From NCBI GenBank assembly GCA_020630495.1, contig JAHDBH010000005.1:7317-71316 (forward strand): a DNA stretch of 64,000 nucleotides, read 5' to 3'. Position numbers and translations under genes: made by a program. Positions 2,286-64,000 of this stretch are shown piece by piece (within the stretch, counting starts at the first letter, position 1; the number at the start of each line of letters is the position of its first letter). The notes under the pieces are model-generated. The model saw only the letters and a program-made list of their open reading frames with translations. It was not told where the DNA came from and made no database searches. The stretch is from Saprospiraceae bacterium. GTDB lineage: Bacteria > Bacteroidota > Bacteroidia > Chitinophagales > Saprospiraceae.

Positions 2286-3308
2286 TCATTTATAATAGTT
2301 TTTCCCAAACCCTTCGGCTTCTTCTCTTCCTATCATCCACTGTAGCAGGCCACTTGCAGTACCACATGCATAGGCAAATACCTGGAGGGGCAGTAGAAAT
2401 GCTGCCATGAGGCCGATTTTCGGACTTTTATATATCGTGGTAGCTTGAGCAAAAGCGATCATGCATATTATGAATGCAAAGAGAGTACACCAGACGAGCA
2501 TTTGGGCGAAAGCCCCCGAAAATACAGCACCCAGCAAGCAAAGCATATAAATACATACAAGTACGAGAGGCATGAAAGCGATCAACTTCATGAACTCAGG
2601 ATACTTGCGTCCCAGATTAATTCGTGCCACGCCCCAGTTAAATATCTGTTTGAAAAATCGCTTGAGACTTGTGCGGCGCTTATGATATACGTAGGCATCT
2701 GGTATGAGGCCAACCTTATACCCAGCAGCATAGATGCGCATACTCAGATCCATATCTTGACCGTGGCGGAGTCTGTTCATGCCACCTATATCAGCAAATA
2801 TCTTACGGTGAATGCCCATATTGAAGCTTCGAGGATAGTACTTCGTGACACTGGTGGCACTACCTCGTGTGCCGCCGCTACCGAGAAAGCTAGTCATGGT
2901 ATAATTGATGGCCTTGAGGAAATCTGAAAAGTCTGGATGATAAGTATCTGGACCACCAAAGGCCTCATACTCATGTTGCGTCACAGCTTTATCTATTATA
3001 TCCAGATAGTCTACAGGAAACATACAGTCACTGTCAATGAAGATGTAATATGTGCCACGGGCCTGGCGCATACCATAATTGCGTGCCTCACCAGGGCCCT
3101 GATTCTTTTGCTTGAGATATACTAGAGACAATTCTGATGTGTAATCATCAATGTACTGCTCGGTGCCATCCGTGCTGCCATCATCCACGATGACGATCTC
3201 AAATGCTGATCGGGGGAAGTTAAGCAGCTCTGCGGAGGCCAGTAGCTCCTGGAGCTCATCCTTGCGATTATATGTCGCTACGATAATACTATACTTCAGC
3301 GATTCCAC
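2286..3308 (-). CDS. Family 2 glycosyltransferase with C-terminal membrane segments
   Basis: This 340-residue inverting glycosyltransferase carries the GT-A nucleotide-sugar signature. The N-terminal strand is YSIIVATYNRKDEL, followed by VDDGSTDGT near residue 41, the DSD metal-binding triad near residue 93 and the GQDMDLSMR acidic motif near residue 185. Three hydrophobic helices after residue 240 anchor it in the inner membrane. It probably adds a sugar to a lipid-linked intermediate for surface polysaccharide. The start is a GTG at 3308. A -7-like TACTTTTG box ends only six bases upstream, so the transcript may have almost no leader. It is divergent from the UDP-sugar dehydrogenase. The acceptor and the sugar cannot be read from the sequence. 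Confidence 0.92.
   Translation of the reverse strand: MESLKYSIIVATYNRKDELQELLASAELLNFPRSAFEIVIVDDGSTDGTEQYIDDYTSELSLVYLKQKNQGPGEARNYGMRQARGTYYIFIDSDCMFPVDYLDIIDKAVTQHEYEAFGGPDTYHPDFSDFLKAINYTMTSFLGSGGTRGSATSVTKYYPRSFNMGIHRKIFADIGGMNRLRHGQDMDLSMRIYAAGYKVGLIPDAYVYHKRRTSLKRFFKQIFNWGVARINLGRKYPEFMKLIAFMPLVLVCIYMLCLLGAVFSGAFAQMLVWCTLFAFIICMIAFAQATTIYKSPKIGLMAAFLLPLQVFAYACGTASGLLQWMIGREEAEGFGKNYYK
2499..2515 (+). repeat. GAAA mini-hairpin copy 1 (stem GGGC/GCCC)
   Basis: CATTT is followed by GGGC, a GAAA loop and GCCC. It lies antisense inside the glycosyltransferase gene. See the main finding on this dispersed element. Confidence 0.8.
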
Positions 3309-3313
3309 TAGGC

Positions 3314-3321
3314 CAAAAGTA
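3314..3321 (-). promoter_or_regulatory. Bacteroidota -7 element TACTTTTG for the glycosyltransferase
   Basis: The minus strand reads TACTTTTG, a full match to TAnnTTTG, directly upstream of the GTG start at 3308. No clear -33 TTTG is visible. It lies head to head with the box for the dehydrogenase in a gap of about 60 bp. Confidence 0.45.
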
Positions 3322-3342
3322 CCAGATGTAGGTCTCGAACTG

Positions 3343-3350: not shown

Positions 3351-3367
3351 TATTAAGTAAATTTACT

Positions 3368-7520: not shown

Positions 7521-7528
7521 GGGGCTGA

Positions 7529-8674
7529 TCACACTACAGGGCTTGCTTCTCTGAGGATATTGGTGAGTGCTGTGACTGTTTGGTCGATCTCGTCGGTGGT
7601 ATTGAGATGAGAGAAGGAGAATCTCACTGCAGTGCGCTCCGAGCACTCACCCATTGCTTTGAGTACGTGGCTGCCCGTCTGGCTTCCTGAGCTGCAGGCA
7701 CTGCCACCACTGACACAGATCCCTGCAATATCGAGCAGCATGAGCAGTGTGCTTGACCTACTATTGGGGGCAAAGGAGATATTGGCCACTCTTGGATTGG
7801 ATAGTTTGCTTTCGCCAGCTACAACCTTGGCAGTAGGAAATACCTCTTTGATGAGGTCGAGAAAGTAGTTTTTATTTCTCAGCAACTGTGCATATCGCTC
7901 GTCCAGTTCACTTTCTGCGAGTTCTAATGCTTTTGCGAGTCCAGCGATGCCATAGAGGTTCTCTGTACCAGCTCGCATAGTACGCTCTTGACTACCTCCG
8001 TGGATCCAGCTTTTGATCGACAGATCACCATTGATGTATATAAATCCTGCTCCCTTGGGTCCGTAAAATTTGTGGGCAGATCCAGTCAAGAAATCGATTG
8101 GAATCTTACTTACATCTATGCGGAAGTGACCCACAGTCTGGATGGTATCTGTGTGGAAATACGCACCGTGTTCTTTCACCAGGGCCGAGACCTGATGCAG
8201 ATCGATCATAGCACCGGTTTCATTGTTGCTGTGCATGAGCGATACGAGCGTCGGTGTATCGCTCGTAGATAGGAGATCACTCAACTGATCCAGATCTACG
8301 GCAGTCTGCGGATGGTAATCTAGTAGGATGACCTCAGTACCGCAGTTCTCTGCCAGATCCTCCAATGTGTGGAGTACGCAGTGGTGCTCCATACCGCTAC
8401 TGATGATGCGCTTGACTCCAAGATCACGGACGGCACACTTGAGTGCCATATTGTTGCTTTCTGTACCGCCACTTGTGAAAAACACCTCGCCTACAGAAGC
8501 TGTGAGGTAATTGGCTACCACTTTACGTGCTTTCTCTATGAGGACTCGGCTTTGTCTACCTGCGGCGTGTATGGAGGAGGGATTGCCATGATAGTCCTTG
8601 AGCACGGCGATCATTTCCTCTTTTACAGCGGGTAGGATGGGGGTGGTGGCGGCATTGTCTAGATAGATGCTCAT
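7529..8674 (-). CDS. Cysteine desulfurase (IscS/NifS class V aminotransferase)
   Basis: This 381-residue PLP enzyme converts cysteine to alanine and passes the sulfur to scaffold or tRNA-thiolation proteins. The start YLDNAATTP is diagnostic. The PLP lysine lies in TGSAHKFYGPKG, and the persulfide cysteine lies in SGGSACSSGSQTG, within the mobile loop of group I enzymes. EHHCVLHTLE supplies the PLP-stacking histidine. The start overlaps the glmM stop by four bases (ATGA), which implies translational coupling. With fdx, iscX and hscA elsewhere in the window it may serve Fe-S assembly. A dedicated tRNA-thiolation role is possible because no iscU lies beside it. Confidence 0.92.
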   Translation of the reverse strand: MSIYLDNAATTPILPAVKEEMIAVLKDYHGNPSSIHAAGRQSRVLIEKARKVVANYLTASVGEVFFTSGGTESNNMALKCAVRDLGVKRIISSGMEHHCVLHTLEDLAENCGTEVILLDYHPQTAVDLDQLSDLLSTSDTPTLVSLMHSNNETGAMIDLHQVSALVKEHGAYFHTDTIQTVGHFRIDVSKIPIDFLTGSAHKFYGPKGAGFIYINGDLSIKSWIHGGSQERTMRAGTENLYGIAGLAKALELAESELDERYAQLLRNKNYFLDLIKEVFPTAKVVAGESKLSNPRVANISFAPNSRSSTLLMLLDIAGICVSGGSACSSGSQTGSHVLKAMGECSERTAVRFSFSHLNTTDEIDQTVTALTNILREASPVV

Positions 8675-14088: not shown

Positions 14089-14667
14089 CTACACAGTGAT
14101 CCTGTGGACAGCGAGATGCTCTGCCAGCTGTGCCAGTGGCAAGCCTACGATATTAGTATATGATCCTTCTATACGTGTCACTCGTGCATGGCCGATCCAG
14201 TCCTGTATGCCATAGCCACCCGCCTTGTCATAGGGTCTATACGTGCTGATATAGTATTCCAGATCCGCTTTGCTGAGATTCATCATAGTGACATTGGTCT
14301 CGCAGGAGAACTGCTGGTGATCCATTCCGAGTCGTATGCTTACACCTGTGATGACTTGGTGGCATTTGCCCGACAGGGCTCTCAACATCTCGCTAGCCTC
14401 AGTAGCATCAGCTGGCTTAGCATAGCTCACACCATCGAGAAGTACCATTGTATCTGCTGCTATGATGATTGCCTCACTATATAGCTGCTGTGCAGCGAGC
14501 GACTTACGCGCGGCGATGTCCTCTGCCCATTGCGCTGGTGCCAATCGTGGATCGGGCGTCTCGTCTATATCAGCAGCGCGTACCGTAAAGTCGCCGCATA
14601 TCATGGCCAGTAGCTCGCGTCGCCGAGGTGACTGAGAGGCGAGGATGATGGGATACTTATATGTCAT
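14089..14667 (-). CDS. maf: Maf-family nucleotide pyrophosphatase
   Basis: The protein has 192 residues from the ATG at 14667, where ASQSPRRREL follows. Other family blocks are IAADTMVLLDG and YDKAGGYGIQDW. Maf proteins hydrolyse non-canonical or selected NTPs, dTTP and UTP in the YhdE branch, and were linked to septum control. YDKAGGYGIQ suggests the dTTP/UTP branch, but specificity is inferred. Its start overlaps the stop of the UbiA gene by four bases. It is the last gene of the fdx-iscX-kdsC-ubiA-maf run. Confidence 0.93.
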   Translation of the reverse strand: MTYKYPIILASQSPRRRELLAMICGDFTVRAADIDETPDPRLAPAQWAEDIAARKSLAAQQLYSEAIIIAADTMVLLDGVSYAKPADATEASEMLRALSGKCHQVITGVSIRLGMDHQQFSCETNVTMMNLSKADLEYYISTYRPYDKAGGYGIQDWIGHARVTRIEGSYTNIVGLPLAQLAEHLAVHRITV

Positions 14668-16818: not shown

Positions 16819-19458
16819 ATGGAAGAAGTACAGAAACAATCAACGAGCAAGACCTACCGCTTCAAAGAACTTAAGGTTTACAGCAGCACCGAGTGGCTAG
16901 CTGATAATCAGAAGAAGTATCGTCAGGTCTTTGATAGGTATGACACGAGCTATATCTATGCCGAGCTGTCATTTGTCAACAAGCTCTACGATGAAGAGTC
17001 GTGGGAGGTCAATGTGCAGCTCAAGTGCTACGAGCAAGCTAGCACCAATCGAGAGATCTGTGCGCTCAATGTGCAGCGTAAGATCAGCAAGCACGAGCAC
17101 ATCTCCTTTGTCAGGGAGGGCTGGGGCAATAAGAAAGAAGGGGTCTTCTGGAAGAAGGGTACCTACTTCTGGGAAGCCTATATCGACGGATCCTTGGTCG
17201 CGACGAAGTATTTCTACGTGGAGGATCAGGGTGAATTTGGCATAGAGCCAAATGAAACCTACGTCAAAGTCAAATCGCTCAAGACCTATGAGGGACAATA
17301 CGATGATGTAAACGAAGATGACCGAAAATACTATAGTGTCTACAGCTCAGATGAGACTCGCTATATCTATACGGAGATCCTTCTGGCTAATCTCAATCTG
17401 GAGCAGAAGTGGCACTGTGAGCTCTTTGTAAAGTTCTACAATGAAGCTCGCGAGCTCAAAGGCCAGGTAGTGCGCCTCAATAAAGTCGAGGAAGGACAAG
17501 AATATATCCGAGTATCTGCGGGCTGGGGCAGTAATATCAAGGGGAGTTGGAGATATGGGGCGTATACCTGTGAAATCATCTTCATGGACCGGCTGCTGGC
17601 TACGGTCCCATTTGAGGTAGATGAAGACTATGAGGATGGATATCCTATGGTCAGACTCCCTGGAGAGCCCTATCCCAAGATTCTCATCAATGAAGAGACT
17701 GAGAAAGAATCCTTTGATGAGCTCATGAGTAAGATGGATCGACTGATAGGACTCGAGGAGATCAAAAGCAAGATACGCGATCAAGCTAAGTACATCCAGT
17801 TTGTCAAGTTGCGCAAGGACAGAGGCTTCAAGGAAGAAGAAGACATCAACGTACACAGTGTCTTTATAGGAAACCCTGGCACAGGCAAGACGACCGTAGC
17901 GCGTATGCTCGGTAAGATCTATCGTGAGATGGGTGTGCTCACACGTGGACACGTGGTGGATGTAGATCGCGTGGATCTGGTAGGCGAGTACATAGGACAG
18001 ACAGCACCAAAAGTCAAAGCAGTCCTAGAGAAAGCAGCTGGCGGAGTACTATTTATCGATGAGGCTTACAGTCTTGCAAGGGCTAAGGATGATAGCAAGG
18101 ACTTTGGTAGAGAAGTGATAGAGATGCTCGTCAAGGAGATGAGTGACGGATCAGGTGATATGGTCGTAGTAGTGGCGGGCTACCCTCAGGAGATGAAGAC
18201 TTTTCTTGACAGTAATCCTGGGTTGAAGTCAAGATTTAAGCTCTACTACGAGTTTCCCGATTATTTGCCAGATGAGCTCATGCTGATCACACAGTACGCC
18301 TGTCAGGACAGAGAAGTCACCCTATCACCAGAGGCAGAAGAAGCCTTGAGACTCATTGTGACCAATTCATTCAGAGATAGAGATCGCAGCTTTGGCAATG
18401 CTCGCTTCATCAATGATCTAGTGGAGAAGGCCAAGATTAATCTGGGACTGCGAGTGATGCAGGCAGAGGACCCAGAGAGCCTAGGCCGAGAAGCTCTGAG
18501 TACCATATTGCCTTCTGATATAGATGGGGTAAACATCGCATTTGCGCGAAAGCGCCTACGCCTACCCATAGATCAGGCCCTGCTCGACGAAGCTCTCGCA
18601 GAGCTAGATGATATGATCGGAATGTCGCAGATCAAGAAGGATATCAAGGAAACCGCACGACTGGTGAGATATCATCTCGAGTCAGGAAAAGATGTGCTCA
18701 ATCGCTTCTATCTGCACTCGCTCTTCGTGGGAAATCCGGGCACTGGTAAGACGACCGTGGCACGTATATTGACTAAAATATACAAGGCCCTCGGCATCCT
18801 TGAGCGCGGGCATATGATCGAAACCGATCGACAAGGTCTGGTAGCTGGATACGTAGGGCAGACGGCGATCAAGACAGCCGAGCGGATAGACGAGGCCAAT
18901 GGTGGCGTGCTCTTTATTGATGAAGCCTACGCACTCAATCGCCAGACGTCGAGTATGGGTGATTTTGGGGATGAAGCCGTGCAGACACTACTCAAGCGCA
19001 TGGAAGATCAGCGCGGGGAGTTCTTTGTCTTTGCAGCCGGATATCCAGACAATATGGAGGCATTCCTCAAGATGAATCCTGGTCTCAGCTCCAGATTTGA
19101 TCGCACCTTCCAGTTTGATGATTACAGCGCAGCAGAGCTGCATGAAATCGCGGTGCTCATGCTCAGCAAACAAGATCTGCGACTCAGTCCAGAGGCGAGC
19201 GAGCACCTGCAGCGTTATATCAATTATATCCATGTCTATAGGGATAAGTACTTTGGTAATGCTCGAGTGATAAGAAAGCTCGTTGACGACCTCATGAAGC
19301 AGCAAAATCTTCGCCTGGCGGATGTCTCGGTCGAGGAGCGAGACTCCATAGATCCACTACTGATCACAGCGGATGATGTAGCATTCTTTGAGACGGACAA
19401 GTACAAGTCTGGATTTGACAAGCGCGGCATAGGCTTCCGCAAAGCCTCTCAGCGCTGA
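16819..19458 (+). CDS. Double AAA+ ATPase (CbbX/SpoVK-like) with duplicated N-terminal domain
   Basis: This 879-residue protein has four parts. Two related domains of about 120 residues occupy roughly 8-140 and 150-275. Both end in a W-x-x-G-x-Y/F-x-x-E pattern before a strand such as FYVEDQG or FEVDED. They are followed by two CbbX-type AAA+ modules at about 300-560 and 590-850. Both modules have GNPGTGKTTVAR (near 350 and 637), a DEAY Walker B box (VLFIDEAY) and FGNAR with the sensor arginine. CbbX-like ATPases remodel other proteins, for example Rubisco or type VII secretion components. The target here is unknown; the N-terminal pair probably binds it. It starts an operon with a YdjM-like protein and BioY. 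Confidence 0.9.
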   Translation: MEEVQKQSTSKTYRFKELKVYSSTEWLADNQKKYRQVFDRYDTSYIYAELSFVNKLYDEESWEVNVQLKCYEQASTNREICALNVQRKISKHEHISFVREGWGNKKEGVFWKKGTYFWEAYIDGSLVATKYFYVEDQGEFGIEPNETYVKVKSLKTYEGQYDDVNEDDRKYYSVYSSDETRYIYTEILLANLNLEQKWHCELFVKFYNEARELKGQVVRLNKVEEGQEYIRVSAGWGSNIKGSWRYGAYTCEIIFMDRLLATVPFEVDEDYEDGYPMVRLPGEPYPKILINEETEKESFDELMSKMDRLIGLEEIKSKIRDQAKYIQFVKLRKDRGFKEEEDINVHSVFIGNPGTGKTTVARMLGKIYREMGVLTRGHVVDVDRVDLVGEYIGQTAPKVKAVLEKAAGGVLFIDEAYSLARAKDDSKDFGREVIEMLVKEMSDGSGDMVVVVAGYPQEMKTFLDSNPGLKSRFKLYYEFPDYLPDELMLITQYACQDREVTLSPEAEEALRLIVTNSFRDRDRSFGNARFINDLVEKAKINLGLRVMQAEDPESLGREALSTILPSDIDGVNIAFARKRLRLPIDQALLDEALAELDDMIGMSQIKKDIKETARLVRYHLESGKDVLNRFYLHSLFVGNPGTGKTTVARILTKIYKALGILERGHMIETDRQGLVAGYVGQTAIKTAERIDEANGGVLFIDEAYALNRQTSSMGDFGDEAVQTLLKRMEDQRGEFFVFAAGYPDNMEAFLKMNPGLSSRFDRTFQFDDYSAAELHEIAVLMLSKQDLRLSPEASEHLQRYINYIHVYRDKYFGNARVIRKLVDDLMKQQNLRLADVSVEERDSIDPLLITADDVAFFETDKYKSGFDKRGIGFRKASQR
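18539..18555 (+). repeat. GAAA mini-hairpin copy 3 (stem GCGC/GCGC)
   Basis: CATTT is followed by GCGC, GAAA and GCGC. It is in sense orientation in the linker between the two AAA+ modules. Confidence 0.8.
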
Positions 19459-20498: not shown

Positions 20499-21323
20499 CT
20501 ACCATCCTAGGGTCCATGGTTTCCACCGACTATCGATGATCGCCATAGACTCATCTCGCATGATGCGTGGATCGGTCATGATGATACCGTAGTGATAGAG
20601 ATCCAGACATATCGTAGAGCGGCCAAATATTTCTGCCCGGAAATCATCATCACACAGTTGCCTCCACGCTCGTGTCATATCATGTGACCAGTAGATGTCG
20701 TCATAGATGATGAGGGCGCTTTCGCGCAAATGTCTCTGTAGACGAGTCGTCAGACGCAGCATGGCTTCGCCACGATGATCGCCATCGATAAGGACCAGAT
20801 CAAAGCTCTCTGCGTCAAGGCTATCTATGTAACTGTAGAAGGTGTCAGTAACAAATCGCGGCTCTCGCAGACCCAGACGAGCTATCGCTGCGCGAGCCAT
20901 CTTGGTCGCAGCTGCCTGTCCATCCACAGAGACCATATGACTTGCTGGTCGGGCGTGACGGAGATAGCAGGTGCTTACACCGCAGCCCGTGCCCAACTCG
21001 AGTATGGACTCTGCCTTGATCCACTGTGAGAGATGATGCAGGAGATGCGCGCGGTAGGGCGTAGTACGGATGAGCCGAAAGAGAGCTGAGACCTTTCTGG
21101 TATGGCTAGGGCGACTGGAAGGCGCGCCAAGATCCTTCCATTCCACTTGAGAGTCATCTCTTGAGAGATCCTCGAAGCTCCTTTGGAGACTGGCGTATTG
21201 CATTCTTGTAGATGTCCTGTAAGCCGCATTCTTCATCATATCATACACCATGGGACTGTGGATGGAATGTATGGTACGGGATTTGAAGTAGTAGGAGAGA
21301 AGTGAGGTCAACTTGCTGATCAT
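20499..21323 (-). CDS. Class I SAM-dependent O-methyltransferase-like protein
   Basis: The protein has 274 residues from the ATG at 21323. The segment IHSIHSPMVYDM at residue 19 is typical of a Bacteroidota methyltransferase group starting with a HSP motif. Motif I is ESILELGTGCGVSTCYL, followed by VSVDGQ and LVLIDGDHRGEAML, an aspartate-rich motif like catechol O-methyltransferases. The substrate is unknown. A TACCTTCT -7-like box lies 16 bases upstream. Confidence 0.85.
   Translation of the reverse strand: MISKLTSLLSYYFKSRTIHSIHSPMVYDMMKNAAYRTSTRMQYASLQRSFEDLSRDDSQVEWKDLGAPSSRPSHTRKVSALFRLIRTTPYRAHLLHHLSQWIKAESILELGTGCGVSTCYLRHARPASHMVSVDGQAAATKMARAAIARLGLREPRFVTDTFYSYIDSLDAESFDLVLIDGDHRGEAMLRLTTRLQRHLRESALIIYDDIYWSHDMTRAWRQLCDDDFRAEIFGRSTICLDLYHYGIIMTDPRIMRDESMAIIDSRWKPWTLGW
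20716..20732 (-). repeat. GAAA mini-hairpin copy 4 (stem GCGC/GCGC)
   Basis: On the minus strand CATTT precedes GCGC, GAAA and GCGC. It is sense to the methyltransferase, in a different reading frame from copy 3 (it encodes HLRES rather than AFARK). Confidence 0.8.
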
Positions 21324-21338
21324 TGCTATAATGTGATG

Positions 21339-21346
21339 AGAAGGTA
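21339..21346 (-). promoter_or_regulatory. Possible -7 element TACCTTCT for the methyltransferase
   Basis: The minus strand reads TACCTTCT, two changes from TAnnTTTG, just upstream of the 21323 start. It resembles the TACCTTCA and TACCTTTA boxes before other genes here. Confidence 0.3.
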
Positions 21347-21405
21347 AGCCAAGCGTCACAGCTACTGACTACATATTGATAACTTTACTTGATCAGACCT
21401 ACGAC

Positions 21406-24246
21406 GTGAAAACACTACTACAACTATTCTTTCTGATATGGATATTTGCTCCAGGTCTTACTGGGCAGATAGGCTTTGTCAAAAGTACTGATCAGCTTGG
21501 TCTGCCCAAGACTAATAGTGGATTGCCCGTTGCTATCGCAGATATCAATGGAGACTTCCTAGATGATATCATCGTAGTGCGCAATCAGAATGATCTCGTC
21601 GTACTGGTCAATCGCGGCAGCGGTGCGGGATTTGATGAGTGGTCTATAGGTGAAGCCAATAGTACAGCTACCTGGAGCATTGCTGTAGGAGATGTCAACA
21701 ACGATGGATTTTCAGATATCCTAGTCTCTGGGACATTTGAGAAGCCCAATCTAGTCTACGGGGCACGAGATACCGCTGATATAATAGTCGTGGATCTGCC
21801 CCTGTCAAGTCTCTTTGCACAGACATCCACTATGTATGACATCAACAATGATGGGTGGCTTGATATAGTCATCTGCAATCTGCTTGGGACTAATCGTGTC
21901 CTCGAGAACAAAGGCGATGGCACATTCAAATTTAACAACACATGGCTCAACTTCTCTACCATACCGCTTTCAGATAACTCCGGAAGTCGAGGTGCCGTGT
22001 GGTCAGACATCGACTGGGACGGCGATGCCGATCTCTATCTGTCCAAAGCCGATCTAGAAGAGCCTGATCCTAGTGCGCCCACAAGAGTTAATCAACTCTT
22101 TGTTAATGATAATCAGATTTTCTTTGATCTGGCAGAGTATACTGGGCTAGACGCAGGAGATCTTACACTAGCCACGGACTTTGGAGACATGGACAATGAT
22201 GGCGACCTAGATTGTATCATGGTACAAGCCAATCAGCCAGCCAAAGTCTATGAGAATCAGGACAACATCAACTTCGCTGATCTGACCAGCTTTACGGGAA
22301 TTGACTTCAGAGACTTTTGCACGCAAGTGAAGCTCGTAGATTTTGACAATGACACAGATCTAGACCTTATCACAGCGGGCGAAGAAGTGTTTTTTTACGA
22401 GAACCAGGGTGGATTTGATTTTGACGAGCGACGGGACGTACTAGATATATTTCCTTATGGCTCTTTCTCTCTCGGTGATATCAATGATGATGGATTCATA
22501 GACGTCTATACATCCTACACGGCATTTCTTAATAGTCCTACCATTCGTCCTGATGCCCTTTGGCTCAATCAGGGTAATGACAATCACTACATCACCGTAG
22601 GCCTGCTGGGAGATGAGAGTAATAATAAAGGTATAGGCGCGAGACTAGAACTCAAGGGCCCATGGGGTACACAGATCAGAGAGATCAGGAGTGGAGAGTC
22701 ATTTGGAATTCAGAATTCACTCAATGCACACTTTGGCCTAGGAGAAGCCGATAAAGCAGACTCACTGATCATCTACTGGCCTAGTGGTACTGTAGACCGT
22801 CATCCCTTGGTAGCGGCTGATAATTTTTACTTTGCTCACGAGGGTGGGTGTCTCAGTCCTCGCTTTGACATAGAGATGACGGGGAACGTAAAATTTTGTG
22901 CAGGTGATAGTGTGATACTCACGAGCATCTCAGCGGATGCATATCTCTGGTCTACAGGTGAAACGGCTAGGTCTATAGTGGTCAAGGAATCAGGACAGTA
23001 TAGTGTGATCACACGGCAGAGCAGTGGATGCGAGAGGCTCAGTGATGTGGTCTATGTAGATGTGGATCCAGACGATACTCCTGAGCTCATCTTCATGGCT
23101 GGAGGTACTCAGAACTGCGACGGCACAGCTGTCATACTTGCTACCCGTGAGCCAGCCAGCAGCTACACTTGGTCCACTGGGGCCTCTGGGCCACAGATTC
23201 TATTGACTAATGGAGGTACATACAGTGTGACCACAGAAGGAACGTGTGCAGAGTGGGAGAGTGAGCCTATAGATATTACTTTTTACAGCAGGCCAGATGC
23301 TCCAGCTGTCACAGGTGACACAGTACGACCAGCTGGTAAAGCCGTGCTCATGGCGACTGGAGAAAATCCACAGTGGTATGATGATGACTCGACTGTAGAG
23401 CTACTGGAAGAAGGACCTGTATATGAGACTAAGCCGCTGTTCAGTAGCGAGTTCTACTATGTATCAGACAAGAGAAGTCATCGCCGAGCTGCAAAGTCAG
23501 TGGGTGAGATTGAGCATACGGGTGATTCCAAGTACAACTTTTCTGAGCTCAATGCACGGATGCTCTTTGATGCCTTCCAAGATATCGTTCTTGACGAAAT
23601 CACCTGCTATACAGATTTCCCCGGGGTCAGACGTCTGATCCTTCTTGACAATGAGTTTACGGTACTCCGAGAGCACTTTATCAATATGAGCGTAGGCGCC
23701 AATGAGGTCAATCTCAGCTGGGATATCCCTGCAGGCGTCAACTACTCCATCACCACAGATACACTTTTCAACATCGCAAATCAGGGCAACAAAAACCCCA
23801 TGCTATGGCGATCCAACACCGATGATATCTCCTATCCCTATGAGCTAGATGACGTGGTGAGTATCAAAAAATCTAGCGTTGTTGATCGAGGATTCTATTA
23901 TTTCTATGACTGGAAGGTGCGACCTGCAGATGTGCAGTGCGAATCGAGTGTGCGTACACCTGTGAGGGCTGTGGTGGAACTTGGGACAAGCACCAGAGAT
24001 TTACTCTATGAGCAAGTAGCGATATTTCCTGTCCCAGCGAGCGACTTCCTTACCATTGCTTCTCTGCCAGCTGGACATAGAGGGGAGCTAACTCTAGTAT
24101 CTCAATTGGGGGTCATAGCTCTGCGCGAACAGATAGCAGGAGACCGACACCAGCTCGATCTGAGTCATCTAGTCAGTGGAAGCTACTTCTTACACATTTC
24201 GTCAGGAGAATCTCAGATGGTGCAGCAAATCATCATACATAGATGA
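21406..24246 (+). CDS. Secreted CRTAC1/ASPIC-UnbV protein with FG-GAP repeats and T9SS sorting domain (paralogue A)
   Basis: I prefer the GTG at 21406, which opens a good signal peptide (MKTLLQLFFLIWIF), over the track's upstream TTG. This gives 946 residues. At least seven calcium-binding D-x-N/D-x-D-G repeats follow, such as DINGDFLDD and DVNNDGFSD, and should form an FG-GAP beta-propeller. An ASPIC/UnbV domain follows near 405-475 (RSGESFGIQNSLNAHFGLG). Two Ig/PKD-like segments with LWSTGE and TWSTGA come next, then a beta-sandwich module seen in T9SS substrates. The type A sorting domain (FPVPASDFLTIASL to QIIIHR) implies export by type IX secretion to the surface. Its ligand is unknown. 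Confidence 0.88.
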   Translation: MKTLLQLFFLIWIFAPGLTGQIGFVKSTDQLGLPKTNSGLPVAIADINGDFLDDIIVVRNQNDLVVLVNRGSGAGFDEWSIGEANSTATWSIAVGDVNNDGFSDILVSGTFEKPNLVYGARDTADIIVVDLPLSSLFAQTSTMYDINNDGWLDIVICNLLGTNRVLENKGDGTFKFNNTWLNFSTIPLSDNSGSRGAVWSDIDWDGDADLYLSKADLEEPDPSAPTRVNQLFVNDNQIFFDLAEYTGLDAGDLTLATDFGDMDNDGDLDCIMVQANQPAKVYENQDNINFADLTSFTGIDFRDFCTQVKLVDFDNDTDLDLITAGEEVFFYENQGGFDFDERRDVLDIFPYGSFSLGDINDDGFIDVYTSYTAFLNSPTIRPDALWLNQGNDNHYITVGLLGDESNNKGIGARLELKGPWGTQIREIRSGESFGIQNSLNAHFGLGEADKADSLIIYWPSGTVDRHPLVAADNFYFAHEGGCLSPRFDIEMTGNVKFCAGDSVILTSISADAYLWSTGETARSIVVKESGQYSVITRQSSGCERLSDVVYVDVDPDDTPELIFMAGGTQNCDGTAVILATREPASSYTWSTGASGPQILLTNGGTYSVTTEGTCAEWESEPIDITFYSRPDAPAVTGDTVRPAGKAVLMATGENPQWYDDDSTVELLEEGPVYETKPLFSSEFYYVSDKRSHRRAAKSVGEIEHTGDSKYNFSELNARMLFDAFQDIVLDEITCYTDFPGVRRLILLDNEFTVLREHFINMSVGANEVNLSWDIPAGVNYSITTDTLFNIANQGNKNPMLWRSNTDDISYPYELDDVVSIKKSSVVDRGFYYFYDWKVRPADVQCESSVRTPVRAVVELGTSTRDLLYEQVAIFPVPASDFLTIASLPAGHRGELTLVSQLGVIALREQIAGDRHQLDLSHLVSGSYFLHISSGESQMVQQIIIHR

Positions 24247-24250
24247 TCAT

Positions 24251-27440: not shown

Positions 27441-27515
27441 GGTGGCTAACCGGAATCGAACCGGCGACCTCTGGAACCACAATCCAGCGCTCTAACCGAC
27501 TGAGCTATAGCCACC
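27441..27515 (-). tRNA. tRNA-His (anticodon GTG)
   Basis: The minus strand folds into a full cloverleaf. The acceptor stem is GTGGCTA/TAGCCAC, the D arm contains GCTCAGTCGGTTAGAGC, the anticodon arm is CTGGA-TTGTGGT-TCCAG with anticodon GTG, and the T arm is GCCGG-TTCGATT-CCGGT. A genomically encoded extra G pairs with C73, as expected for tRNA-His. CCA is not encoded. Confidence 0.95.
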
Positions 27516-46391: not shown

Positions 46392-47639
46392 ATGCACAAT
46401 TGCTGGATAGAATATGACCATACATCAGACTTTAGTCTTTATAATCTTCCCTACGGAGTCTTTAGATATGACGGAAGGTATGGAGTAGGGGTCGCTATCG
46501 GTGATCAAGTCATAGACATGACAGCCGTGGCTCATATAGAGCAATTCCAGCAGGAGCTGAAGATACCAGCAGAGGTATTTGCACGTCCAGTGCTCAATGA
46601 CTACATCGCTCAAGGCCCTGCCAAGCATCGCGAAGTCAGAAAATATCTGACACGCGAGCTCACTGATGTTCAGTCTTATCTACGAGATCATCAGGTACTC
46701 CTTTCTCAGAGCGATGTCGAGATGGTACTGCCTGTACGAGTGCCAAATTATACGGACTTCTACTCTTCTAGAGATCACGCCACCAATGTCGGCAAGATGT
46801 TTAGAGATCCTGAGAATGCTCTATTGCCCAATTGGCTGCATATGCCCGTAGCCTACCACGGACGGGCGAGTAGCATAGTGGTGAGTGGTACGGATCTGCA
46901 CAGACCCTGTGGCCAGCAGATGCCCAAGGACGCGGAGACTCCCGTATACGGACCATGTCGACTCCTCGACTTTGAGTTGGAGATGGCCTTCATCATCGGT
47001 AAAGCCAACGAACTAGGCAGACCTATCAGTACGGCAGATGCTGATGATCATATATTCGGATTGGTCTTGTTCAATGACTGGTCAGCCCGAGACATACAGA
47101 AGTGGGAATATGTTCCTCTCGGACCATTTCTGGGCAAAAACTGGGGCAGCTCAGTCAGTCCGTGGGTCGTGCCACTGGACGCTATAGAGAAGTTTCGCGT
47201 ACCAGGTCCGGCTCAGTCACCAGAGGTATTGCCATATCTCAAGTATGAGGGGGATCGCCACTACGATATATCCCTTGAGGTCGCTATACAGCCTGATGAC
47301 ATGGATGAGACTACGATAGTGCGTAGTAACTACAGACACCTTTACTGGAACATGGCCCAGCAGCTGGCACACCATACGATAAATGGTTGCAATATGCAGA
47401 TAGGGGACATGCTAGCTTCTGGCACCATCAGCGGCCCGACGGAGTCCTCCTTTGGATCTATGCTCGAACTCAGCTGGGCTGGAAAGAAAGACGTAGAACT
47501 AGTAGGTGGACAGAAGCGGAAGTTTATCCACGACGGTGATCGCGTGATCATGCGGGCTTTCGCCCAAAATAATGATTGCAGAGTCGGATTTGGAGAAGTA
47601 CGAACCAAGATATTGCCCTCACATAAAACCAAAAGTTGA
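46392..47639 (+). CDS. fahA: Fumarylacetoacetase
   Basis: This 415-residue enzyme performs the last step of tyrosine catabolism, hydrolysing fumarylacetoacetate to fumarate and acetoacetate. The N-terminal SH3-like domain starts FSLYNLPYGVF. Catalytic and metal-binding blocks are DFYSSRDHATNVGKMFR, PVAYHGRASSIVVSG, LDFELEMAFIIGK and LFNDWSARDIQKWEYVPLGPF. The C-terminal core has GDMLASGTISGP. Length and spacing are those of the eukaryotic-type FAH. It sits between a ferredoxin and a response regulator, an unusual place for a catabolic gene. Confidence 0.96.
   Translation: MHNCWIEYDHTSDFSLYNLPYGVFRYDGRYGVGVAIGDQVIDMTAVAHIEQFQQELKIPAEVFARPVLNDYIAQGPAKHREVRKYLTRELTDVQSYLRDHQVLLSQSDVEMVLPVRVPNYTDFYSSRDHATNVGKMFRDPENALLPNWLHMPVAYHGRASSIVVSGTDLHRPCGQQMPKDAETPVYGPCRLLDFELEMAFIIGKANELGRPISTADADDHIFGLVLFNDWSARDIQKWEYVPLGPFLGKNWGSSVSPWVVPLDAIEKFRVPGPAQSPEVLPYLKYEGDRHYDISLEVAIQPDDMDETTIVRSNYRHLYWNMAQQLAHHTINGCNMQIGDMLASGTISGPTESSFGSMLELSWAGKKDVELVGGQKRKFIHDGDRVIMRAFAQNNDCRVGFGEVRTKILPSHKTKS
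47554..47570 (-). repeat. GAAA mini-hairpin copy 10 (stem GGGC/GCCC, flank ATTTT)
   Basis: On the minus strand ATTTT precedes GGGC, GAAA and GCCC, antisense to fahA. The flank departs from CATTT, the stem is perfect. Confidence 0.65.
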
Positions 47640-50282: not shown

Positions 50283-52691
50283 ATGCGAATAGCTGTATTT
50301 CTCTATAAGTTGATCCTAGTATGCAGTATCGGACTTTCCGCCACATTGGCCCATGCACAGTATCAGATTTCTGGACTTGTGCTATCTGACACTGATGAAG
50401 CAATAGCTTTTGCGACCATCTCACTATTCAATGCTCAAGACAGCGGCTATATCCGCAGTACAGATACCGATATGGATGGCGCCTTCGCTATACCATCTGA
50501 TTCTGGTAGCTTCTACTTGATGATTGACTATATCGGATACCAGACAGAGACGATCAGCGGTATCAATGTAATAGATGCTGATGTAGACCTCAGTACAGTG
50601 CGACTGGGCGCGGGTACTGTAGAGCTGGATGAGATCGTGGTGGAAGGAGAGAAAAGTACCGTCCAGTTTAATCTCGATAAGCGTGTCTACAATGTAGGCT
50701 CTGATATCAGCAATGCTGGTGGATCTGCAGAGGAAATCCTTGATAACTTGCCATCGGTCCAGGTGGACATAGATGGCACAGTGAGTCTCAGAGGTAGTAA
50801 TGGTGTCCGCATATTGATCAATGGAAAGCCCAGCGGTCTAGTAGGTCTAGAGGGTAGCAATGCCCTGCAGTCCATCCAGGCCAGTATGATCGAGAAGGTA
50901 GAGCTGATCACTAATCCTGGCGCTAAATATGAAGCCCAGGGAGAGGCTGGTATCATCAATATCATACTCAAGAAAGAAAAGAATGATGGTCTCAATGGCT
51001 CTTTTGACCTGGCTCTGGGCTACCCAGAGAATCTCAGTGCTGGAATCAATCTCAATTGGCGCAGGAAAAAATGGAATCTCTTTACCAATCTTGGCGGTAG
51101 ATATCGCAAGTCTCCAGGTAGAGGAAACACCTTTCAGCGCACCCTAAAGCCTGGAGCAGAAGAAATCTTTAGGAGTACAAGTACTAGAACACGCGAACAG
51201 CTCTCTGGGAGCTTCCAGTTTGGCACAGAGTACTTCCTTGATGATAAGAACACCTTTACCCTGAGCGGAATGTATCGCAAGGCGGATGGCAACAACTTCA
51301 CCAGTATCGTCTATCAAGATCTCGATGACATGGGCAATGTATTGAGAGAATCCATACGCACAGATCGCGAAGAGGAGCCCTCTGATGATATCGAGCTGCA
51401 GTACAACTGGACCAAAACATTTGCCCGAAAGGGCCAAAAACTTACTCTAGATGCTCAGTACGCGCTCAATGACGAGACGGAGAGATCTGAGTACAATGAG
51501 GCCATAGACAACTTTGCTGATGAGGTCCAGCAGCGCTCCACCAATACGCAGGACCAGTGGCGATGGCTACTGCAGTCAGACTATGTCCATCCTGTGAGTG
51601 AAGGTCGTGATCTGGAGATCGGTGTACGCGGTGAGCGCAGGCGCGTGAGCAACGATTTTACCGTAGAGCAACTGGATGATGAGCTCGGCTACCAGATCGT
51701 GGATGGTCTCAATGATGAGCTAGCCTATAAGGAAGCCGTCTACGCTGTCTATGGTACATACGCCGATGAAACGCACAAGCTCTCCTACAAGCTGGGCGCT
51801 CGCATGGAGTACACGGGCATCTCTACCGAGCTACTGGAGTCTGGCAGCGTAAATGAGCGGGAATACTACAGTCTCTTCCCGACAGCGCACTTGAGTTACA
51901 AGCTGGATGAATCCAATCAGCTGCAGGCGAGCTATTCACGACGGATCAGCAGACCGCGCTTCTGGTACTTGATGCCTTTTTTGACATTCAGTGATAGCAG
52001 AGTCAGATTTCAAGGTAATCCCGACCTCAATCCAGAGTTTACTAACTCAGGGGAACTGGGCTATCTGAGATTTTTTGATAAGGGTACCTTCCTTACATCG
52101 ATCTACTATCGTCATCGGACTGATGTAGTGGAGCGCGTCCGAGAAATAGATGAGGCTGGCATCACCTCTATCATTCCCGTCAATCTCTCCGTAGAAAATG
52201 CCATCGGAATAGAGATGAATGCCAATATCGAATTTTCTCCTTCACTCAGCTGGAATATTAATGGTAACTTTTATAATTCTCGCAGAGAAGGCGAATACAA
52301 GGGGCAGACTCTGACGGCAGAGGCCACCACATTCAGTGGAAGGACGATGATCTCCGCCAAGCTCAAGGATGGACTAGATCTACAGACTAGCTTCAATTAC
52401 CGTGCTCCGCGCAATACCACACAGGGTAGATCGCTGAGTTCTTACAGCTGGGATATGGGTGTGTCCAAGGATATATGGGACAAGAAAGGCACTATATCAT
52501 TCTCCATCCGTGACCTGCTCAATACACGCCTGCGTCGCTCCATAGTCGACACAGATGATCTATACTCTGAGAGTCTGATGCAATGGCGACCTCGGAGCTA
52601 TATCTTGCAGCTGAGTTATCGCCTGAGACAGCAGAAGAAACGTGGTCGCAGCACTGGCGGCGGCGCTATAGATGGTGGCGGAGAATTCTGA
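50283..52691 (+). CDS. TonB-dependent receptor/outer membrane beta-barrel protein
   Basis: The protein has 802 residues. Signal peptide MRIAVFLYKLILVCSIGLSA, then a CarboxypepD-reg-like domain (ISGLVLSDTDEAIAFATISL), a plug with VSLRGSNGVRILINGKPSGL, and a barrel of the OMP_b-brl_3 group ending RSYILQLSYRLR. There is no STN domain and no SusD-like partner. Such receptors import vitamins, siderophores or other small ligands using TonB. The C-terminus is rich in glycine rather than ending with the usual aromatic residue. Confidence 0.9.
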   Translation: MRIAVFLYKLILVCSIGLSATLAHAQYQISGLVLSDTDEAIAFATISLFNAQDSGYIRSTDTDMDGAFAIPSDSGSFYLMIDYIGYQTETISGINVIDADVDLSTVRLGAGTVELDEIVVEGEKSTVQFNLDKRVYNVGSDISNAGGSAEEILDNLPSVQVDIDGTVSLRGSNGVRILINGKPSGLVGLEGSNALQSIQASMIEKVELITNPGAKYEAQGEAGIINIILKKEKNDGLNGSFDLALGYPENLSAGINLNWRRKKWNLFTNLGGRYRKSPGRGNTFQRTLKPGAEEIFRSTSTRTREQLSGSFQFGTEYFLDDKNTFTLSGMYRKADGNNFTSIVYQDLDDMGNVLRESIRTDREEEPSDDIELQYNWTKTFARKGQKLTLDAQYALNDETERSEYNEAIDNFADEVQQRSTNTQDQWRWLLQSDYVHPVSEGRDLEIGVRGERRRVSNDFTVEQLDDELGYQIVDGLNDELAYKEAVYAVYGTYADETHKLSYKLGARMEYTGISTELLESGSVNEREYYSLFPTAHLSYKLDESNQLQASYSRRISRPRFWYLMPFLTFSDSRVRFQGNPDLNPEFTNSGELGYLRFFDKGTFLTSIYYRHRTDVVERVREIDEAGITSIIPVNLSVENAIGIEMNANIEFSPSLSWNINGNFYNSRREGEYKGQTLTAEATTFSGRTMISAKLKDGLDLQTSFNYRAPRNTTQGRSLSSYSWDMGVSKDIWDKKGTISFSIRDLLNTRLRRSIVDTDDLYSESLMQWRPRSYILQLSYRLRQQKKRGRSTGGGAIDGGGEF
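51418..51434 (+). repeat. GAAA mini-hairpin copy 11 (stem GCCC/GGGC)
   Basis: CATTT precedes GCCC, GAAA and GGGC, sense to the TonB receptor. It shares 23 identical bases with copy 7. Confidence 0.8.
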
Positions 52692-55402: not shown

Positions 55403-55496
55403 ACCTCTCGTTTGACGCACATGACATTTGCACGTAAGTGCCTAGATCCTCACGTTAAAGACGACCTAGAAGGGCTACAATACGGATCCTCATCTA

Positions 55497-59713: not shown

Positions 59714-60009
59714 AGAAAGGCAAGGCCAGTAGTGGGGCTCTATGATGATCTTATCAGACTTGACGACGCTTAATGTTGTGGCTCGGACAAATTTCTGTAT
59801 ATTTCACTTAGGGGTTGGTCTCTCACCGCATTGTCTATAGCATGACTTTTGATAGATAGCACGAGACTGCTGGCTTGTATTGCCTTGGAGCCAGGAGTGA
59901 ACATCTCTGTTATATAACTGTAAGTCCTTTAGTTTATGCCCCTTATCATTAAGCTTATGCTGGCTCAGATGCCACATTTGTTAGAAACCATCTATTGGAA
60001 ACATCATTT

Positions 60010-62544
60010 ATGAGAAAAATTGTCGCTCTTTTCTTAGGGTTTTTATTGTCTTGGAGCGCTTTCGCGCAAATGAACATCACCCTCACCGAATCTGATCTGC
60101 GGATCGATACCAGGTTGCCAGAGTTATTCACGGAGCACAGCCTGGTGCAGATGGACTACCTACAGGTCAGTCAGAGCCTGGATCCAGAAGAAGTAAGCCG
60201 CATGAGCTGGACTCTTCCTGATGGGAAGAAATGGGACATGGAATTATATCCATCCCAGATTGCGGCTGATGATCTGCTGGTAAGGATTATAGAGGCAAGT
60301 GGTGAGAAAGTGCAGATAGGTGCACAGGCTGTCGCATACTATGGTCGATTATCAGATGATATAGATAGTCACATACGACTCACGGTCAATGGGCCATTTA
60401 TCAGTGGCTATATCCAGACTAAGAAGCGCACTATGTTCATAGAGCCAGCCAGTGATCTGGATCAACGCATACCAGAGGGACACTACGCACTCTATGATGT
60501 ATCAGATATCAAAAATACAGGAGATGTCAAGTGTCACGCCACAGATGCGGAGCTAGAGCGAAGACGTATAGGCAATCCTGAAGAGCTGCCATCTGGCCAG
60601 CAACGCGGACCAGATGACTGCTTCACAGTAGAGCTAGCCGTCTATGCCGACTACGACTACTTCCTAGATGAGGGTAGTACCATAGGTGATGCCACTAATC
60701 AGATCATCGCCGTCATGAACACCGTAGCTCCAGAGTATGAATACAATGGCTCCAATAACTTTGAGTCAGGTGTCGAGTTTGAAATCGTGGAGATGGTGAT
60801 CAGCAGATGTGAGGCATGTGACATCATAGGTCCGTCTACGGATATAGGCTATTTGCTTAATCAGTTTACAGCGTGGTCGCCAGATGGTTTTAGGCTGTCT
60901 CATGACCTTGGCCAATACTGGACTGGGCGAAATCTGCCTGGTGGTACTATCGGCCTAGCTTGGGTCAATGCTGTATGCTCTAATGTGCGATATCATGTAC
61001 TGGAAAACTATTCCAATACCACCTGGCAACTGCGCGTGCTCACAGCCCACGAGATAGGGCACAATTTCTCTGCTAATCACGATGCAGGCGGATCTAATTT
61101 CATCATGGCGCCTAGCATCACTAATACTTCGACCTGGTCTACATTGAGTAAGAACACCGTAAATGCTAATCTGGACGTATACGCATCCACCTGTCTTGCA
61201 GACTGCGGATCTGACCCATGTCCTACCGTAGAGGACGTGGTGATATCGCAGATTACGACCACAGGATTCAGAATTACATACTCTGCCACACCTGATAATT
61301 CATATCGCATAAGAGTGCGTGAGCAAGGTGCGACCACATATTTAAGTACGCAGACCACCTCATCAGAGAATATCGTCATCAGCCCATCAGGATGGAATGA
61401 GTGCGGTATCTATGAGGTGTCTGTAGAAAATAATTGTGGAGGCGGCGATTATAGCGCACCAGTGATAGCACTGGTAGTCGCAGAAATAGATGCCTGCCCC
61501 TATTTTAATTCTCCAGCCGTGGGATATAAAGATGAGTCGTTAAACTTCGCTCATGTGGGCACTCCAGCTACGTCCTACCTCTGGACATTTGGCGATGGTG
61601 CTACCTCATCATCCGCCACTCCGTCTCACTCCTATACATCGGATGGAGTCTATACGGTGACGCTTGAAGTAAACGGTAATGGCGTGCAAGAATCAAAGAT
61701 TGTGACGGTCCTGCCAGATCTCAATCCGCCATATTTTCCCTCAGATGGTGGCAACTTTGGGACCAATCCTGATCACTTTGCCGCAGACTCGCCTGATGGA
61801 ATCCCAGCTTGGGAGAGAGGTGTACCAAGTGGTGCTCTGACCAATGATGGAGATGTATGGAAGACTGGACTTACCACTGATGCGCCAGAGCGACCCAATA
61901 CTAGTTATCTATACTCGCCAAGATTTAACTTCTCAGGAGAAGGTAACTATGATCTTTCACTACGGGTAGGGATGGATCGTCTCTTTGCTGTAGGGCCGTA
62001 TGGTCTGAGAATGCAGTATAGTCTAGATGATGGAGCCAGCTGGACTACGCTGGGCAACTGTGGCGAAAATGGTGACCCTGGTGTGAGCAACTGGTATGAG
62101 AGTGGTGGCTGCGGAGGTCAAGATATATTCAACACCATTTTCTCTGATAGAATCTCGTGGAACTTCGGTAATTTATCTGAGGTCAGAACATCGACTTACG
62201 ATCTCAATTTTCTGGAGGGAAATGCCTCGGTCTGCTTCAGATTTGAATATGCGAGTACCGTGGGATTTCCATCGAGCGCTTTTAGAGACGGATTCCTCCT
62301 AGACAATTTTACCATCAATTACGATGGAGACCCACCAGGCGATCCATGCGATGGATTTAATCTTACACTTGGCACGGCTGATTACCCTGGCACGTTCAAA
62401 GCCAAGAATACCATCACAGCAGGTGGCACGATATCTGGCGGCACGGTAATCCTAGAAGCTGAGAATGGCTTTGATATTCAGAATGGATTTGAGGTCCAGG
62501 TAGGTAGCACGCTAGAGATGAACATAGACCCGTGTGATCTGTAG
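60010..62544 (+). CDS. Secreted reprolysin-like metallopeptidase with PKD domain
   Basis: The protein has 844 residues from the ATG at 60010. A signal peptide (IVALFLGFLLSWSAFAQ) is followed by a propeptide-like region of about 170 residues. The metzincin catalytic domain carries the zinc site HEIGHNFSANHD near residue 347. A fibronectin-like segment, a PKD domain (YLWTFGDGATSSSATPSHSYTSDGVYTVTLEV, shown only in part by its FGDG and PSHSY blocks) and a beta-sandwich follow. The C-terminus ends in a coathanger-like repeat (IQNGFEVQVGSTLEMNIDPC) rather than a classical T9SS tail. It is probably an extracellular protease. Confidence 0.88.
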   Translation: MRKIVALFLGFLLSWSAFAQMNITLTESDLRIDTRLPELFTEHSLVQMDYLQVSQSLDPEEVSRMSWTLPDGKKWDMELYPSQIAADDLLVRIIEASGEKVQIGAQAVAYYGRLSDDIDSHIRLTVNGPFISGYIQTKKRTMFIEPASDLDQRIPEGHYALYDVSDIKNTGDVKCHATDAELERRRIGNPEELPSGQQRGPDDCFTVELAVYADYDYFLDEGSTIGDATNQIIAVMNTVAPEYEYNGSNNFESGVEFEIVEMVISRCEACDIIGPSTDIGYLLNQFTAWSPDGFRLSHDLGQYWTGRNLPGGTIGLAWVNAVCSNVRYHVLENYSNTTWQLRVLTAHEIGHNFSANHDAGGSNFIMAPSITNTSTWSTLSKNTVNANLDVYASTCLADCGSDPCPTVEDVVISQITTTGFRITYSATPDNSYRIRVREQGATTYLSTQTTSSENIVISPSGWNECGIYEVSVENNCGGGDYSAPVIALVVAEIDACPYFNSPAVGYKDESLNFAHVGTPATSYLWTFGDGATSSSATPSHSYTSDGVYTVTLEVNGNGVQESKIVTVLPDLNPPYFPSDGGNFGTNPDHFAADSPDGIPAWERGVPSGALTNDGDVWKTGLTTDAPERPNTSYLYSPRFNFSGEGNYDLSLRVGMDRLFAVGPYGLRMQYSLDDGASWTTLGNCGENGDPGVSNWYESGGCGGQDIFNTIFSDRISWNFGNLSEVRTSTYDLNFLEGNASVCFRFEYASTVGFPSSAFRDGFLLDNFTINYDGDPPGDPCDGFNLTLGTADYPGTFKAKNTITAGGTISGGTVILEAENGFDIQNGFEVQVGSTLEMNIDPCDL
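60056..60072 (-). repeat. GAAA mini-hairpin copy 12 (stem GCGC/GCGC)
   Basis: On the minus strand CATTT precedes GCGC, GAAA and GCGC, antisense to the start of the metallopeptidase gene, at the signal peptide cleavage region (SAFAQM). Confidence 0.8.
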
Positions 62545-62548
62545 CATA

Positions 62549-64000
62549 CTACTCGGCGCTGTCAATTCCCCTGCCCTGTAGAGAAGTCGCGATATGTACA
62601 TCCATCATTCTCTCTGCTATCGCTCGGGTATCTGCATCGTGCTGAGTGATAGCGGCTTGGATCTCATCAGCGGAGGAGTCCATGACTGCACGAAGCCGAG
62701 ATAGAGAATCGCTCAGCTGAGTAGCTTCATCGCTCGACAGATTTGCCGCATTTTGCTTGGCAAATTTCTCAGAAGCTTGGATGAGTAGTCGTAGTTCATT
62801 GATCGCCTCTAGTCTTTTTCTCAGAGCCACATCGGCTTCGGCATGCTGGAGAGAATCGAGGAGCATCTCCGCCATTTCCTCTTCTGACATACCGTAGGAT
62901 GGCTTGATCTTCACAGACTGTACCGTCATACTACGCAGTTCTGCGGCAGATACCTGTAAGATACCGTCTGCATCTAGGATAAATGATATTTCGATTTTGG
63001 GTATGCCTGCTGGCATGGGAGGTATGCCGCTGAGGACAAATTCGCCCAGCTTTCGATTATCATCCACAAGATCGCGCTCGCCCTGATAGACACTGATGCG
63101 CAGATTGACTTGGCCGTCTACGCTGGTGGTGTATTGCCGGCGTGCGGTATAGGGCACCTTCGTATTTCGCGGTATGATGGTGTCCATGAGTCGACCCATT
63201 GTCTCTATGCCGAGCGACAGAGGTGTCACGTCTAGCAGGAGCACATCTGGATTATTCCCAGCCAGGATGTCGGCTTGTACAGCTGCGCCTAGCGCTACAG
63301 CGGCATCGGGATCTAGACTGGTATCAGGCTTTCGCCCAAATGTCTTCTCGACCATATCCCGCACGAGAGGTACACGAGTACTGCCTCCTACAAGTAGTAC
63401 TTTGTCGATATCGCCTGCGGTAAGCTCTGCATCTGACAGGGCTTTTAAGCAAGATTCTATAGATCTCTCTATCATAGCCTTGATGAGACCATCGAAAGTC
63501 TTTCTGTCTAGCTTCAACTGCTGTCCACGAAAGCTTGATTCTGCCTCGCTTTTGAGCGAAAGCTCCCTCTTCACCTCCTCCGCCGCAATCCTCAATTCAC
63601 CGCGACCCTCCGCGTCTAGCTCTCCTAGATCGTACTGCTGCACCCAGTAGCTCATCACGGCCTCTTCCATGTCATCACCGCCGAGGTGCGTATCTCCTTG
63701 GGTGCTGAGCACTTCATAGACACCGGCATCTATCTCTAGGATGGTCACGTCAAATGTCCCACCACCGAGATCAAACACAGCCACTCGCTGACGATCATGA
63801 GCGCCTATACCTATGCCATGCGCGAGAGCTGCAGCGGTTGGCTCATTGATGATGCGGACGACATCGAGCCCGGCAAGCCTACCGGCATCTCGTGTGGCCT
63901 GGCGCTGTGAATCATTGAAGTATGCTGGAACTGTGATGACCGCTCTGTTCATCTCTTCTCCTGTGCTCTGCTTGACTACTTGTCGGAGATGCTTGAGTAT
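62549..64000 (-). CDS. hscA: Fe-S assembly chaperone HscA (5' end outside window)
   Basis: The last 483 codons of an Hsp70 are present, and the frame continues through the window edge ([16 protein letters not shown] before the track start). It has [45 protein letters not shown] and [12 protein letters not shown]. The substrate domain has [24 protein letters not shown], and the tail ([16 protein letters not shown]) is short like HscA, without the long acidic DnaK lid end. HscA releases clusters from IscU and works with HscB and ferredoxin. Two mini-hairpin copies lie inside it. Confidence 0.9.
63326..63342 (-). repeat. GAAA mini-hairpin copy 13 (stem GGGC/GCCT, G-U closing)
   Basis: On the minus strand CATTT precedes GGGC, GAAA and GCCT, sense to hscA. 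The outer pair is G-T, which would be a G-U wobble in hscA mRNA. Confidence 0.7.
63548..63564 (+). repeat. GAAA mini-hairpin copy 14 (stem GAGC/GCTC, flank CTTTT)
   Basis: CTTTT precedes GAGC, GAAA and GCTC, antisense to hscA and about 200 bases from copy 13 in the opposite orientation. The flank departs from CATTT, the stem is perfect. Confidence 0.6.

Follow-up and report, generated by a model that had tools for sequence, protein, structure and literature searches.

The Saprospiraceae genome that supplied the 64-kb window (the whole stretch of DNA that was analysed) is G000, a Saprospiraceae bacterium MAG of 3.53 Mb in 331 contigs, and it carries a dispersed 17-nt mini-hairpin that belongs neither with fixed-string signals nor with inserted palindromes. 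As far as we know, the short signals that recur throughout bacterial genomes (uptake sequences, Chi, KOPS, HIP1) have a fixed sequence, and hairpin repeats are inserted. No prior description of the element was found in the open literature, subscription papers and preprints lying outside that scope. The element follows the rule 5'-C(A/T)TTT-[K N N C]-G N (A/C) A-[G N' N' M]-3', with an unpaired T-tract 5' of a 4-bp stem, and CATTTGGGCGAAAGCCC is one form of it written out as a single strand. Its properties suggest a genome-wide tag that the cell recognizes by the fold which the DNA adopts when single-stranded.

A search with this rule returned 19 copies in the window. All 14 sites named in a preceding sequence-only reading exist, 13 of them as perfect 4-bp GAAA hairpins; at 63326 the outermost pair is G-T, and the one placed at 63548 in fact starts at 63549. 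Five copies (8010, 14363, 22314, 37320 and 55425) were added, four of them with full stems and all with GACA, GTAA, GCAA or GGAA as the loop. The copies are as follows.

2499..2515, plus strand: CATTT-GGGC-GAAA-GCCC; antisense in ORF 2286-3308(-); the aligned place in the congener G001 has an element too, with stem GCGC, the alignment being off by one residue
6978..6994, minus strand: CATTT-GGCC-GAAA-GGCC; sense in ORF 6486-7646(-)
8010..8026, plus strand: CTTTT-GATC-GACA-GATC; antisense in ORF 7529-8674(-); added
14363..14379, plus strand: CATTT-GCCC-GACA-GGGC; antisense in ORF 14089-14730(-); added
18539..18555, plus strand: CATTT-GCGC-GAAA-GCGC; sense in AAA-ATPase ORF 16819-19458(+)
20716..20732, minus strand: CATTT-GCGC-GAAA-GCGC; sense in ORF 20499-21359(-)
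22314..22330, plus strand: CTTTT-GCAC-GCAA-GTGA, outer pair unpaired; sense in ORF 21376-24246(+); added
26515..26531, plus strand: CATTT-TCAC-GAAA-GTGA; sense in ORF 24176-27091(+)
29274..29290, minus strand: CATTT-GTCC-GAAA-GGAC; antisense in ORF 29110-30036(+)
33350..33366, plus strand: CATTT-GCCC-GAAA-GGGC; sense in ORF 32836-33768(+)
37320..37336, plus strand: AATTT-TAGC-GGAA-GCTA; sense in ORF 35316-38009(+); added
38455..38471, plus strand: GATTT-GATC-GAAA-GATC; antisense in ORF 38006-39847(-)
40798..40814, minus strand: CATTT-GTCC-GAAA-GGAC; sense in ORF 40689-41711(-)
47554..47570, minus strand: ATTTT-GGGC-GAAA-GCCC; antisense in ORF 46392-47639(+); the same codons in G001 carry an element
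51418..51434, plus strand: CATTT-GCCC-GAAA-GGGC; sense in outer-membrane beta-barrel / TonB-receptor-like ORF 50283-52691(+)
55425..55441, plus strand: CATTT-GCAC-GTAA-GTGC; intergenic, between converging ORFs that end at 55402 and 55497; added
60056..60072, minus strand: CATTT-GCGC-GAAA-GCGC; antisense in ORF 59995-62544(+)
63326..63342, minus strand: CATTT-GGGC-GAAA-GCCT, outer G-T; sense in an HSP70 ORF (-) with its low-side start at 62549
63549..63565, plus strand: CTTTT-GAGC-GAAA-GCTC; antisense in the HSP70 ORF (-) that also carries the 63326 copy

The sole Rfam match in the window is a tRNA gene at 27441-27514 on the minus strand. At antisense copies the residues AFAQM or AFAQK are often encoded (window 2499-2515; L244 gene 19; L247 gene 8), and in some genes this resembles a signal-peptide end (AxAQ), a permissive spot for the element.

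The original description of the element as CATTT plus a GAAA-looped stem was right as to a conserved flank and loop, but the loop is G-N-(A/C)-A and not strictly GAAA, and the constant part of the flank is TTT. Among 288 TTT-preceded hairpins with a C-GNNA-G loop and a stem of at least 4 bp, the third loop base was A or C in 287; GAAA was the most frequent loop, followed by GACA, GGAA, GTAA, GCAA and GGCA, and GAGA, GCGA, GTGA and GGGA were essentially absent. The flank begins with C (about 69%), followed by A or T and the TTT tract. The stem opens with G or T and is, as a rule, four pairs long. TTT directly precedes 160 of the 161 GSGCGAAAGCSC strings in G000 and all 199 in G001. Upstream of the element, G001 favours C seven bases before TTT (126/274; loci L061-L100, L256-L275) and G000 favours G three bases before it. 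An apparent depletion of GSGC hairpins lacking TTT in the genus g1 did not survive a comparison that took in every stem and loop. The predicted folding energy of the 17-mers as DNA was -2.8 to -4.9 kcal/mol. Loops of the d(cGNNAg) type form a hyper-stable DNA class, to which the mini-hairpin d(GCGAAAGC) belongs; the element shares this loop class and its C-G closure, although the former is a biophysical motif and not a described genomic repeat.

Pairing was assessed at sites picked by flank and loop alone, with pairing ignored (n=95 in G000, n=192 in G001). From the inner to the outer position, complementary pairs were present at 94, 93 and 82 of the 95 sites in G000 and at 191, 178 and 127 of the 192 in G001, in which the outer pair is looser. 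Full stems were formed at 81/95 sites vs. 8.1 with partners shuffled in G000, and at 118/192 vs. 21.4 in G001; the distinct full stems numbered 21 and 19, respectively. Moreover, over 50 positions, at sites likewise taken without regard to pairing, the three stem pairs ranked first, second and third among all column pairs in both genomes. The covarying, compensated stems proposed earlier are therefore confirmed, and this unambiguous covariation shows that a folded strand matters. It likewise supports the proposal that what is recognized is a structure, conserved in its loop and 5' flank, and that recognition takes place at the DNA level, independently of protein sequence.

The copies lie far above chance, as had been claimed from a rough count. 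The window holds 11 CATTTNNNCGAAAG sites vs. 0.01 expected from dinucleotide shuffles; the whole of G000 holds 318 (157 forward, 161 reverse) vs. 3 for the reversed pattern, and G001, the sole congener compared, holds 432 vs. 3. For strict counts and context, G000 was covered over ~0.77 Mb and G001 over ~1.20 Mb; this gave 172 elements in 773 kb and 275 in 1,196 kb, about one per 4.5 kb. When synonymous codons were shuffled with each gene's protein sequence and codon usage held fixed, a mean of 2.4 elements (maximum 6) was obtained vs. 148 observed in G000, and 4.3 (maximum 10) vs. 246 in G001. Since these shuffles are low and the stems are far more complementary than shuffled partners, neither outcome named in advance as speaking against the element, counts no higher than in codon-preserving shuffles or stems no more complementary than loop and flank predict, was found. 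The chance that the element is an accident, a product of codon bias or a low-complexity artefact of one MAG is negligible; this reading is already refuted by the synonymous shuffles, the reversed controls and the occurrence of the element in a separate congener MAG and in other genera.

Called genes contain about 86% and 89% of the elements in the two genomes, with every frame and either orientation represented; since the calls were simply the longest ORFs, the intergenic figure is of limited accuracy. Within genes, 243 copies are antisense and 151 sense (62% antisense). This bears on the possibility that the element is a protein-binding or processing hairpin in mRNA. RNA would form the same hairpin, and GAAA is a common stable RNA tetraloop. 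A GNRA element would, however, present a GNRA loop on the sense strand, whereas here the loop is GN(A/C)A, with GACA common and the four variants listed above with G as third base essentially absent, antisense copies outnumber sense ones, and no Rfam match to the element was obtained in the window. The antisense excess and the non-GNRA loop rule point to DNA rather than RNA, and we consider an RNA element very unlikely.

We compared 65 elements with their reciprocal-best orthologues at an identity of at least 45%, some being counted against two partner genomes. At 57 of the 65 the alignment was gap-free. Gaps occurred at 8/65 elements vs. 3.5% at random places; their lengths and directions varied, and no consistent element-sized insertion was present in the orthologue alignments. 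In the 49 gap-free, unshared cases amino-acid identity was 0.44 within the element vs. 0.60 in the flanks (p=4e-5), and DNA alignments had a rewritten core between conserved flanks, the orthologous sites carrying scattered partial matches without clean block replacement. The element thus overwrites codons in place, with no insertion. At one element of G001 (L086 gene 6), the G000 and g229 orthologues are alike and G001 departs from them at the element's first two residues, so that in this case at least it is the bearer of the element that changed; in other cases the lower identity could instead mean that elements settled at tolerant residues. Five loci have an element common to G000 and G001, of which four align cleanly; in these four, all 18 same-residue codons are identical vs. 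444/1057 (42%) elsewhere, a figure inflated because the shared sites were chosen for carrying the element.

These observations bear directly on a REP-like miniature mobile element moved by a Y1 (RAYT) or other HUH transposase, a parallel that the sequence-only reading had drawn. REPs are mostly extragenic. They consist of a hairpin with a conserved 5' tag, as in the GTAG REPs, and RAYT reads them as single-stranded DNA (PMC3733652). The likeness is in this tag, here C(A/T)TTT instead of GTAG/CGTC; REPs, however, are 20-40 bp long and inserted, whereas the present elements are 17 nt, mostly intragenic and written in place, with no insertion footprint in orthologues and no Y1 transposase that tracks them. 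In a HUH search that covered Y1 only, Y1_Tnp was not found in G001 (99% complete, 432 copies), G551, G453, G615 or G545, and it was present in many element-free relatives. The sole match in G000 is a partial one, L134 (G000:C36:2809-3009). The absence of Y1 from several element-rich genomes together with the lack of insertions removes the REP/RAYT model as a mechanism, and we regard any such mobile element as even less probable than an RNA one. Palindromic repeats within genes are known in Rickettsia, whose RPEs are insertions (PMC3733652), whereas the elements here preserve gene length.

In-place origin would also follow from a selfish converter, a putative enzyme that writes or corrects hairpins by template switching or gene conversion with no net insertion. 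Consistent with it are the codon overwriting within conserved stretches, a patchy distribution, and the scarcity of intermediates with internal mismatches: full pairing was present at 58 of 77 flank-and-loop sites in G000, and a single internal mismatch at none. The scattered partial matches at orthologous sites do not resemble block replacement, and quasi-palindrome correction by itself would leave the letters of flank and loop unfixed. We know of no enzyme that writes hairpins in place, and such a converter appears distinctly improbable. An explanation outside those considered here has a smaller chance still, above that of an RNA element.

Among 396 genomes of the phylum, G000 alone stands out. 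When the TTTGSGCGAAAGCSC form was counted in 248 family genomes, it was high in g1 (160, 199) and in g229 (30-114). Moderate counts came from single members of g223 (25 vs. 3 in the control) and g251 (11 vs. 0), whereas g266, g41, g4, g290 and g281 had low counts that still exceeded the control, and most genera had none or almost none. The element was present in a fourth g229 genome as well. Abundance is therefore patchy, being high in two Saprospiraceae genera, lower in several and at background elsewhere in Bacteroidota. Other flanks with the same GSGC hairpin raised no further genus clearly above the reversed control among 130 family genomes. The bearers differ in dialect: G000 has CATTT with many stems, G001 has C(A/T)TTT with TGGC/GGGC, and g229 has TTT-GGGC/GGAC with GNAA loops. 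In some g229 copies (L104, L107, L291) the hairpin is followed by A-rich sequence whose pairing with the TTT tract lengthens the stem to 7-8 bp. Two g229 genomes have same-orientation pairs of copies, 73 bp apart in L310 (G551) and 39 bp apart in L288 (G654).

The arrangement along the chromosome is relevant to a directly selected chromosome-maintenance signal (Chi-like, or a replication-restart, repair or nucleoid site), which would be read as a hairpin wherever the cell's own chromosome becomes single-stranded. The same anatomy would serve it, and the density of Chi in E. coli is near that of one strict element per 4.5 kb. Spacing in G001 was somewhat more even than random (dispersion 0.59-0.73, p 0.0025-0.08), as would suit such a signal, with no significant departure from random in G000; gaps between neighbours were near random, without clustering or pairing of copies. 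The longest element-free stretch in the contigs examined was 14.6 kb, in G001, and contains a 2918-aa ORF (L074:2191-10947). The codon identity of the four shared elements also favours maintenance, subject to the choice of those sites. Chi-, KOPS- or primase-type signals, however, are expected to be oriented with replication, and the strand bias that had been suggested as worth seeking was not detected by GC skew in contigs: plus/minus copies for positive and negative skew were 56/55 and 29/32 in G000, and 80/90 and 52/53 in G001. Most related genera lack the element, which is odd for a housekeeping function. We judge a maintenance signal unlikely, although clearly more probable than a converter.

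The best explanation, which we advance tentatively, is that the element acts like a DNA uptake sequence, as a self tag read in the form of a folded single-stranded hairpin and spread by molecular drive. Such a fold-defined tag across the genome would be read in the single-stranded state by a putative structure-specific single-strand DNA-binding component, and the likeliest occasion for this is natural transformation or the period directly after it. Tagged DNA might be taken up, protected or recombined better than untagged DNA, and if it were so favoured, tags born by mutation inside genes would be propagated through biased recombination, the route proposed for uptake sequences, even where this was somewhat costly to the encoded protein. 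In this account we infer single-stranded DNA as the form read, the transformation setting, drive over direct selection, and a dedicated reader. The wider formulation, a structure-encoded genome-wide identity code with lineage dialects, in which the hairpin and not a string is recognized and which has been driven through Saprospiraceae genes, is more doubtful, although we place it above a maintenance signal.

High copy number, presence on both strands, intragenic position, orientation bias, dialects and patchy spread all fit uptake-like drive. In favour of the self tag we also count the covariation at sites unselected for pairing, the loop rule, the in-place origin, the lack of a GC-skew link and, in G001 but without significance in G000, the spacing. 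The DUS of Neisseria and the USS of Pasteurellaceae likewise occur in hundreds of copies on both strands, many intragenic, with lineage dialects and, in genes, one favoured orientation, the reverse complement (PMC2346458); they are fixed strings, whereas in the present element two to three stem pairs are free to vary as long as they stay complementary. HIP1 of cyanobacteria, discussed with orphan methyltransferases (PMC4390886), is similarly dispersed and lineage-specific, but is a fixed palindromic octamer, GCGATCGC, in contrast to varying letters with a kept fold.

Against the self tag, the uptake sequences described so far are fixed strings and are probably recognized in the duplex, a step at which a hairpin cannot easily form, and uptake-like drive leaves the need for a fold unexplained. 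Further, the shortage expected in foreign DNA was not apparent, with no clear fall in element density in genes of atypical codon usage or without orthologues. Viral contigs gave only 6 exact matches to one form, about chance by a rough estimate. We know of no competence described in Saprospiraceae. Competence genes, named earlier as worth looking for, do not track the element: ComEC (26/26) and DprA (18/18) were present in all relatives tested; being universal in the family, they neither support nor weaken the uptake reading. On the side of the uptake reading, Riemerella, also of the Bacteroidota, transforms with ComEC, DprA, ComF and RecA (PMC8459023).

The function of the element could yet prove to be a variant of DNA uptake or recombination signals. 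An element whose fold is kept and which is written in place across protein genes, altering the proteins there, lies outside both kinds known to us. It provides naturally occurring covariation data on a structure that appears to be formed by DNA and not by RNA, and it poses the testable question of whether bacteria read single-strand DNA folds as marks of identity or of maintenance.
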